Source: Heliophilum fasciatum (lineage in GTDB: Bacteria; Bacillota; Desulfitobacteriia; Heliobacteriales; Heliobacteriaceae). From it: a stretch of 64,000 nucleotides of DNA. Both the position numbers and the translations under genes were made by a program. Where the stretch lies: the NCBI RefSeq assembly GCF_004341395.1, contig NZ_SLXT01000007.1:1-64000 (forward strand), read 5' to 3'. Positions 52,810 to 54,718 of the stretch are shown piece after piece. How positions within the stretch are numbered: position 1 is the first letter of the stretch; every line of letters starts with the position of its first letter. The notes beneath the pieces are model-generated. The model did not search any database, had not been told where the DNA came from, and was given only the letters and a program-made list of their open reading frames with translations.

Positions 52810-53427
52810 TTAACGGGCAATTTCAAAGGTTAGATCATAACGGGCTTTGAGAAAATCAACGAGATCATCTTTTTCGTGCGATAAGATCACTTTGAATGCT
52901 TTACGTACGCGCTTGATATTGCAGTCATCGATGGCTTCTTCATAAGCAGCAATTGTCGACAACTCCTGGGCGATGGAGCGAGAAAGATATTCCCGCGTAC
53001 GGGCGATCAAGATCGCATCACCGGTTAAGGGGCCAAGCGCGTCGAGATTCTCCTCGTCATCGTCTTCGTTATCGTCGGCATGGTTCGTTTCTTCGCATGA
53101 CGATGATTCAAATTCTGAATGTTCCTCATCCGCTTCCGTTTCTTTGGTTGACGAAGCATCTGATGACGGTTCTAAGAAAGCAAAAGCAGAAGGGAGGGCG
53201 TTGGCGTAATGGAGCCCGTCTTTTTCCGCGCAGGTGGCAAAAACGGAATCGACTTCCATCAGCAAACGCGTCAATACGGCAAGGTGTTCTTTTTCATGTT
53301 CCGCTTCTTTGACGAAAAAGGACTGTAAAGCGGGGTGCACCCGTAAAGCTGCTTCTTCGTAAAGCTGAATGGCGGCATTTTCATGACAGATGGCCTCGCG
53401 TAAAAGGGTGCGCACATGCGTCGCCAT
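52810..53427 (-). CDS. Ferritin-like protein with long acidic insert
   Basis: 205 residues. Two ferritin-like helical halves: the first (about 1-65) with AICHENAAIQLYEEAALRVH and KEAEHEKEHLAVLTRLL, the second (about 140-205) with RSIAQELSTIAAYEEAIDDC and LSHEKDDLVDFLK. They are separated by a roughly 40-residue Glu/Asp/Ser-rich stretch (about 90-130). The ExxH residues for a diiron site are partly retained. Similar to rubrerythrin-like coat or storage proteins; specific role unknown. Confidence 0.78.
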   Translation of the reverse strand: MATHVRTLLREAICHENAAIQLYEEAALRVHPALQSFFVKEAEHEKEHLAVLTRLLMEVDSVFATCAEKDGLHYANALPSAFAFLEPSSDASSTKETEADEEHSEFESSSCEETNHADDNEDDDEENLDALGPLTGDAILIARTREYLSRSIAQELSTIAAYEEAIDDCNIKRVRKAFKVILSHEKDDLVDFLKARYDLTFEIAR

Positions 53428-53517
53428 GACCTCAACTCCTTATTTCGTGTTTTCCCAACATATATTTTCCTCATAGAAGGAAGAAATCCTCTACGGTAAC
53501 AATAATTTTCTTGGGCA
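53428..53517. other. Short AT-rich spacer
   Basis: Contains only the region upstream of the ferritin-like gene on the minus strand; no separate gene seen. The ncRNA terminator begins at its right edge. Confidence 0.4.
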
Positions 53518-54219
53518 TAAAAAAAGAGGGAGCCGAAGCTCCCACCTTTAAGCAATCATCCCTACTCCTTGAACTTGACAACCAGAGAAGATCAACCTAC
53601 TTTATGGCGTACTTTTCCGAGTTAGAACAATCGTAATTAACGAGAAGGGATATCTATTAACCAAAGATCAGGATCTAACAGGCAACCTAGAACCCGTAAC
53701 CCAGTACCTCCATTTCAGTACCGAAAGCCAGGAAAACGGAAACCTAACATCGGAGACCCCGCATCGGAAAACTACCAATACCAAAGGAGAAGCCGTTCAT
53801 TTGCCTAAGAGTTTGGAACCGTCCGTTCGTGAACCTTGATTCATGACTCGTTAACTAACACAGAGAAAACTCGAACCGAAGAAGTAAGAACCTGAACTCC
53901 GAACATCAAACAACCAAACGAAGGAATTGAAAATCCGACCATACTCCCGAACCGTGAGTCATGAATCCTTAACCGTACAACCCGAACTATCTGGGGAAAA
54001 CCGGGGATAATAAGCGAATCTTTTTCCGAAGCGAAGAACTCAAAGACCCCAAAATACCCGAGAAAACAAAAAAACCAACAAACCCAGTACAATGGACTAC
54101 TTCAGGTGATCAAGAACCGTTGCGTTTTCCAGTGGCTTTCTCTTGCAGAAACAACCTAGACCGGACAACCAATCAGACTTGTTAAACCGTGAACTGTCTC
54201 TTTAGTAGGGATGTTGCTC
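53517..54219 (-). ncRNA. Large (~700 nt) structured non-coding RNA, class unknown
   Basis: Read on the minus strand the element has a promoter (54226-54254), a start near 54219, a closing helix made of its two ends, and an intrinsic terminator. The closing helix is AGTAGGGATG+TTGCT (54204-54218 on plus) with AGCAA+CATCCCTACT (53551-53566), 15 bp with one bulge. A second long-range helix is GAGTCATGAATC/GATTCATGACTC (53956-53967 with 53838-53849), 12 bp perfect. The RNA strand is G/U-rich with about 22 GGUU motifs. No coding frame looks real: stops interrupt all frames except a Trp/Phe-rich 83-codon frame without a site. Size and end-to-end pairing resemble OLE, GOLLD and ROOL RNAs, but I cannot assign it to them; neighbours are not the usual OLE ones. 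Confidence 0.75.
53518..53543 (-). terminator. UUCG-capped terminator of the large ncRNA
   Basis: On the minus strand GGGAGC-TTCG-GCTCCC followed by TCTTTTTTTAT. Confidence 0.9.
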
Positions 54220-54225
54220 ACCTGT

Positions 54226-54254
54226 ATGGTAGCACATCGGGATCGTCTTTGCAA
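54226..54254 (-). promoter_or_regulatory. Promoter of the large ncRNA
   Basis: On the minus strand TTGCAA, 17-nt spacer ending in TGC, then TACCAT, i.e. an extended -10. The expected start (about 54219) coincides with the first base of the closing helix. Confidence 0.75.
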
Positions 54255-54309
54255 GCGCTTTTTCGAAAAAGGCCAACGAAATTTTGCGCGGTAAAATGGG
54301 GTGGAATTA

Positions 54310-54339
54310 TTGACACCAAAGGCATCTGTTGACTATACT
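54310..54339 (+). promoter_or_regulatory. Promoter of the branched-chain amino acid operon
   Basis: TTGACA (54310-54315), 18-nt spacer, TATACT (54334-54339). Divergent from the ncRNA promoter, with 55 nt between the two -35 elements. Confidence 0.82.
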
Positions 54340-54344
54340 AAAGG

Positions 54345-54664
54345 TCAAGTGTAATAGGAAAAAGGCGATGACGGGTGCCAAAACATCGACCGTCCCTTAG
54401 ATCCAGAGAGCCGGGGTAGCTGAGAACCGGCGCTAATACGGACGATGTTGTCTCTCCCATGAGTTGCTTAGCCCAACGGCCAGATTCCATGGCCCAGTAG
54501 GTGAAGCCGGATGGAGCGTGAAACGCGAGCGTCCGTTATCTTGCTATGATGCTCCTGCGTCAAAAAGGGGTTGCGCTTGACGCAACAACCAGGGTGGTAC
54601 CGCGAGAAAAATCCCTCTCGTCCCTGGCAGATGTGATCATCTGCTAGAGCGAGGGGTTTTTTTA
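54345..54664 (+). promoter_or_regulatory. T-box leader of the ilv-leu operon
   Basis: The canonical T-box AGGGTGGTACCGCG (54591-54604) is followed by a terminator (CCCTC...GAGGG, T7, 54611-54664). Stem I is recognisable from AGAGAGCCGGGGTAGCTGAGAA upstream and the pairing AACATCG/CGATGTT. The likely specifier loop is TCTCTCCC at 54451-54458; CTC (Leu) fits best, consistent with a leucine-responsive ilv-leu operon. The specifier assignment is inference, the T-box itself is clear. Confidence 0.93.
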
Positions 54665-54718
54665 TATGCTTTTTTTAAACTACCCAATCATAATCGGTGA
54701 AGGAGAGCGAAGAGGAAG

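Follow-up and report, generated by a model that had tools for sequence, protein, structure and literature searches.

The window, by which we mean the whole 64,000-nucleotide stretch of Heliophilum fasciatum DNA that was analyzed (RefSeq assembly GCF_004341395.1, contig NZ_SLXT01000007.1, positions 1 to 64,000), contains a 1.3-kb gap (53428-54718) that an earlier note on this sequence had described as lacking a plausible protein gene. About half of the gap belongs to ilvE and holds its promoter and T-box leader, which the note had missed. Divergent to these elements is an RNA gene. Including its promoter, this gene spans 53519-54254 of the minus strand and consists of the promoter, a helix that joins the two ends of the RNA (P1), an interior of ~635 nt, and a UUCG terminator (Table 1). 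No protein gene lies between the strands of P1.

Table 1. Features of the RNA gene and of the adjoining ilvE control region
Feature	Position	Strand	Evidence
RNA gene, inferred ~700-nt transcript	53519..54219	minus	Promoter, end helix, and terminator in register; homologues in relatives
-35 box TTGCAA	54249..54254	minus	Sequence; TTG invariant in 8 heliobacterial copies
Extended -10 box TG-C-TACCAT	54226..54234	minus	17 bp from the -35 box
P1 5′ strand AGCAACAUCCCUAC	54205..54218	minus	Pairs with 53551-53566; covariation, 21 distinct sequences
P1 3′ strand AGUAGGGAUGAUUGCU, one bulged base	53551..53566	minus	Partner of 54205-54218; directly before the terminator
Interior, predicted open; 22 GGUU (8.8 expected)	53567..54204	minus	Dinucleotide shuffles; folding z
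Intrinsic terminator hairpin GGGAGC-UUCG-GCUCCC, then U tract	53528..53543	minus	Sequence
12-bp long-range inverted repeat	53838..53967 (53838-53849 / 53956-53967)	minus	Exact match
Divergent sigma-A promoter of the T-box-ilvE operon (neighbor, not part of the RNA)	54310..54339	plus	Sequence
T-box leader of ilvE (neighbor, not part of the RNA)	54359..54628	plus	Rfam RF00230, 75.3 bits, E 5e-16

The score of the T-box leader, like those of the leaders in three relatives, is below the RF00230 gathering score of 93, and automatic annotation at that threshold would therefore miss it. The operon behind the leader is ilvE-ilvD-ilvN-ilvC-ilvB. On the minus strand, 52810-53427 encodes a small ferritin-like protein that weakly resembles EncB-type encapsulin cargo (a match below the NCBIfam cut-off) and that we did not find in the eight other genomes of the family. 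The arrangement upstream of ilvE varies within the family. In genomes G006 and G007, motB immediately precedes T-box-ilvE and the RNA is absent from that spot, and loci L036 and L038, from two genomes of one genus of the family, show motA-motB immediately ahead of it. The window and G003-G005 have genes as well as the RNA between motA-motB and T-box-ilvE, indicating that this intergenic spot gains insertions.

The earlier note had placed a promoter with an extended -10 box on the minus strand, a transcript start at the base of a helix between the two ends, and a UUCG-capped terminator, and all three were borne out. The promoter is predicted to be of the sigma-A type, and both of its boxes recur in the heliobacterial copies. 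Within the -10 region, GTG.TA...T is kept in eight of eight of these copies at a fixed distance of 7 bases before P1, and the spacing is the same in distant relatives. The P1 duplex has a predicted energy of -21.7 kcal/mol, equalled by 2 of 500 dinucleotide shuffles, while the fold of the whole element is unremarkable (z -1.04). A further claim of the note, a perfect 12-bp helix within the RNA, held as to its exactness. However, a repeat as long arose in 6 of 500 shuffles of the window element, and since the region could not be aligned between genera, the helix does not count as conserved evidence.

Comparison by blastn, which the note had suggested, did not reveal relatives: against 83 genomes of the class, 398 of the phylum, phages, and plasmids, the element yielded only chance and terminator matches. 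Homologues came instead from synteny. In three genomes of a sister genus (G003, G004, and G005), an element of 580-765 nt adjoins T-box-ilvE and has the promoter, 5′ end, 3′ end, and terminator of the window copy. With the G005 element as query, we recovered copies in Heliobacterium mobile (G002), H. chlorum (G001), and the MAG G008. G007, from another genus of the family, carries a copy at a different locus, bringing the heliobacterial copies, with that of the window, to eight.

We then scanned 84,980 species with a pattern made up of the extended -10 box and the 5′ strand of P1. Besides heliobacteria, the scan returned ten copies in Pelotomaculum, Peptococcaceae, Desulfotomaculaceae, and Bacillota MAGs and one in a Negativicutes MAG; in all eleven, the 3′ P1 partner and a terminator lay ~200-310 nt downstream. 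Matches in Acinetobacter, Yersinia, Bacteroidota, and others, which had neither 3′ partner nor terminator, were set aside as chance, as were loci L107, L110, L115, L136, and L148. Genomes of further families came from a covariance model and from another pattern; six of them are outside the Pelotomaculum class, one being cut by a contig end. Within that class, Desulfotomaculia, short forms found by their conserved 5′ end occurred in 24 of 113 genomes, compared to none for a control pattern. The carriers total 39 genomes (24 Desulfotomaculia, eight heliobacteria, and seven of other groups, including the Negativicutes MAG), and this range is a lower bound, since the model search scored only the best candidates per genome and the patterns tolerate few changes. 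No viral contig contained the strict short-form pattern, and we rejected a phage origin.

The RNA is a single-copy, free-standing gene whose length and neighbors vary. Short forms measure 191-415 nt, most of them 190-310 nt, and heliobacterial forms 540-900 nt, with the interior inside P1 ranging from ~155 to 870 nt across the family. BLAST missed the homologues because length and interior vary so much; synteny and the conserved ends reveal them. Heliobacterial copies adjoin ilvE, many of those in Desulfotomaculia adjoin tRNA-Ser(GGA)/ffs, and copies elsewhere have other neighbors. Many Desulfotomaculia have the RNA immediately upstream of a tRNA-Ser gene (mostly with anticodon GGA), and in several of them the SRP RNA gene comes next (tRNA-Ser-adjacent loci L064, L069, L078, L085, L101, L114, L137-L138, and L140-L144). 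Possibly, this neighborhood is the ancestral locus. In a Negativicutes MAG, L071:6609-6816 contains two ZMP-ZTP riboswitch aptamers in tandem.

Copies of the family share an extended -10 box 7 bases before AGCA.CA.CC, a partner strand before an intrinsic terminator, and a P1 that covaries. In the 17 pairs of P1, compared across 21 distinct sequences, 93% of cells were paired, against 30-55% when the strands were slid against each other. We counted 17 doubly changed cells, compared to 5.1 ± 2.4 in shuffles (reached in 0 of 500), and five pairs had changed on both sides; for example, pair 14 changes from C-G to U-A and pair 8 from U-A to C-G. Thus, of the two helices whose covariation the note had proposed examining, P1 covaries, while the 12-bp helix falls in interior sequence that has diverged beyond alignment. 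The single bulge of P1 shifts position among the long heliobacterial forms.

P1 was the sole consensus helix that RNAalifold found in 31 short forms. A small 5′ arm (P2) opens the interior of most of them, pairing GAC..GGUU with AACC..GUC around a UUGCA/UGCAA hairpin. Its support is mainly conservation, with weak covariation because P2 hardly varies; by eye, locus L143 has AAU/AUU where others have GAC/GUC. Behind the arm, most short forms contain GGRUAGUGUUUUUU, apparently unpaired, and beyond it AGGAGGAUU..GUAACCU. Most short copies and several heliobacterial ones keep the sequence of the terminator hairpin, (G)GGAGAAGGC..GCCTTCTCC(C), beyond what termination needs (loci L035, L037, L039, L057-L085, and L137-L161). 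At loci L102-L104, a terminator hairpin GGGGTTTGC stands in place of GGAGAAGGC..GCCTTCTCC.

By thermodynamic prediction, the interior is open, folding no better than shuffled sequence. Calculated without P1, the mean folding z was -0.03 for 31 short forms and +0.97 for seven long forms, with the window copy at +1.18; control RNAs from carrier genomes gave -2.5 (6S interiors) and -0.98 (SRP) in the same test, which, as minimum free energy folding, is blind to pseudoknots and tertiary structure. The short interiors are mostly C-poor (6-17%), with L071 (29%) as the exception.

The large size of the RNA is a heliobacterial expansion, and this expansion is rich in GGUU. Taken together, the seven long forms contain 169 copies of this motif compared to 69 expected (z 15), the top excess of all 256 4-mers, with up to 37 in a single form. 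None of 200 dinucleotide shuffles reached the count in the window copy. Six of the seven long forms show the excess clearly, G007 being the exception (10 versus 7.3), and the short forms are slightly enriched (81 versus 49 expected, z 5.4). As G007 has no excess and that of the short forms is slight, GGUU may be a heliobacterial specialty rather than the core signal of the family. Between species, GGUU is more often identical than the average 4-mer (0.81 versus 0.66, 0.70 versus 0.49, 0.46 versus 0.26, and 0.33 versus 0.23), and its sites are predicted to be only slightly less paired than average (0.41-0.45 unpaired versus 0.37-0.40). The motif is dispersed, and we found no tandem repeats. In H. 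chlorum and H. mobile (L066 and L067), the interior of the RNA contains GGTTAGCTCAGTTGGT, which resembles a tRNA D arm. ARAGORN called no tRNA in these copies, and we rejected a tRNA-like array.

A cmscan with all 4,227 families of Rfam 15, at gathering thresholds and at permissive E-values, left the RNA unmatched in the window and in its homologues. We saw no conserved open reading frame in the homologues, and indels of any length occur. The main texts of PMC11109978, PMC8632094, and PMC2864571 do not mention heliobacteria or Pelotomaculum. Since independent copies share the promoter, P1, and terminator, P1 covaries, and Rfam has no match, the note's proposal of a new non-coding RNA gene is supported. 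This gene almost certainly belongs to a conserved family absent from Rfam 15, one carried by heliobacteria and by roughly one in five of the Desulfotomaculia genomes that we searched. The newness concerns the family; its mechanism may prove to be of a known type, a sponge or an antisense RNA.

Because gene neighbors change between lineages, we infer that the RNA acts in trans. Our tentative preference is for an RNA in which clamping of the ends protects an open array of putative binding sites for a partner. P1 and the terminator hairpin would guard the ends against exonucleases and keep the interior in an open loop. Multiple copies of an RNA-binding protein, or else a partner RNA, would bind to the repeated G-rich motifs and be titrated or gathered there; by multiplying these sites, the heliobacterial lineage would have raised the dose. 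A trans-acting antisense regulator is a possible, if doubtful, alternative. Here the conserved, apparently unpaired GGRUAGUGUUUUUU and AGGAGGAUU would pair with mRNAs, Hfq possibly binding the U tract, and most of the interior would be spacer. The conserved, apparently unpaired GGRUAGUGUUUUUU of most short forms and the strong conservation of the promoter amid changing neighbors are consistent with such a regulator. However, the long heliobacterial forms do not retain this sequence as it stands, and spacers have no need to multiply and conserve GGUU.

Other readings fare worse. The earlier note had likened the element to large ornate RNAs, an RNA-only nanostructure or ribozyme in the manner of OLE, GOLLD, and ROOL. 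Its 540-900 nt in heliobacteria, closed ends, and lack of an adjoining protein partner fit this description, but we consider it improbable and do not retain the likeness, as Rfam has no match, the interior folds like shuffled sequence, the second helix lies in an unconserved part, P1 alone forms the consensus of the 31 short forms, and most relatives have 191-415 nt, many of them fewer than 310. The plan of an end helix around an open bubble, at 190-310 nt in most short forms, could also suggest a polymerase decoy, a divergent 6S-type RNA. This is very unlikely, since the RNA does not match the 6S model and all 24 carrier or family genomes tested hold one or two copies of a bona fide 6S RNA gene elsewhere, on which ground we rejected 6S identity. 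In the family of the window, genomes G000-G007 mostly have two 6S RNA genes. Least credible is the view that the sequence next to ilvE is a cis element or a decayed gene that does not function as a separate RNA. It would account for the position near a T-box-ilv locus in six heliobacteria, but the RNA is divergent to ilvE, has its own promoter and terminator, and has a covarying P1, and unlinked copies beside unrelated genes elsewhere refute it.

If the end-clamped, site-bearing RNA that we favor is correct, it might represent a new RNA device, a suggestion we make with some reserve: an end-clamped open loop with a GGUU array for a putative RNA-binding protein, growing from a few motifs to nearly forty in the photosynthetic heliobacteria, and tuned by length rather than fold. 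The fixed clamp, the predicted open middle, and a motif number that scales with lineage offer a testable case of how the dose of binding sites may evolve while the ends stay constant. For Heliomicrobium modesticaldum, transcriptomes and CRISPR editing are available according to PMC9145376.

In CsrB and RsmZ, the repeated motif is GGA in hairpin loops. The RNA described here differs in that GGUU is not the GGA of CsrA, there is no hairpin array, and a long conserved helix closes the ends. Like these titrating RNAs (CsrB: PMC5027483), it is one RNA gene that repeats a short G-rich motif many times, beyond chance in the long forms (GGUU, 169 versus 69). It shares with 6S RNA (RF00013) the end helix, the open middle, and, in most short forms, the size, but does not match it in sequence, and every tested carrier has separate 6S genes. 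With OLE, GOLLD, and ROOL (PMC12286853), it shares its non-coding nature and, in heliobacteria, the size range; it differs from them in having no model match, an interior structure not beyond chance, short relatives, and no copy found on viral contigs. Finally, the smtA motif or 'Soda Lake RNA' (HRC-65-1), described in PMC11109978 as restricted to Thioalkalivibrio and as covarying strongly in several stems, is likewise a large non-coding RNA of >350 nt; compared to that account, the RNA of the window and its homologues covaries in P1, around a middle that is predicted to be open.
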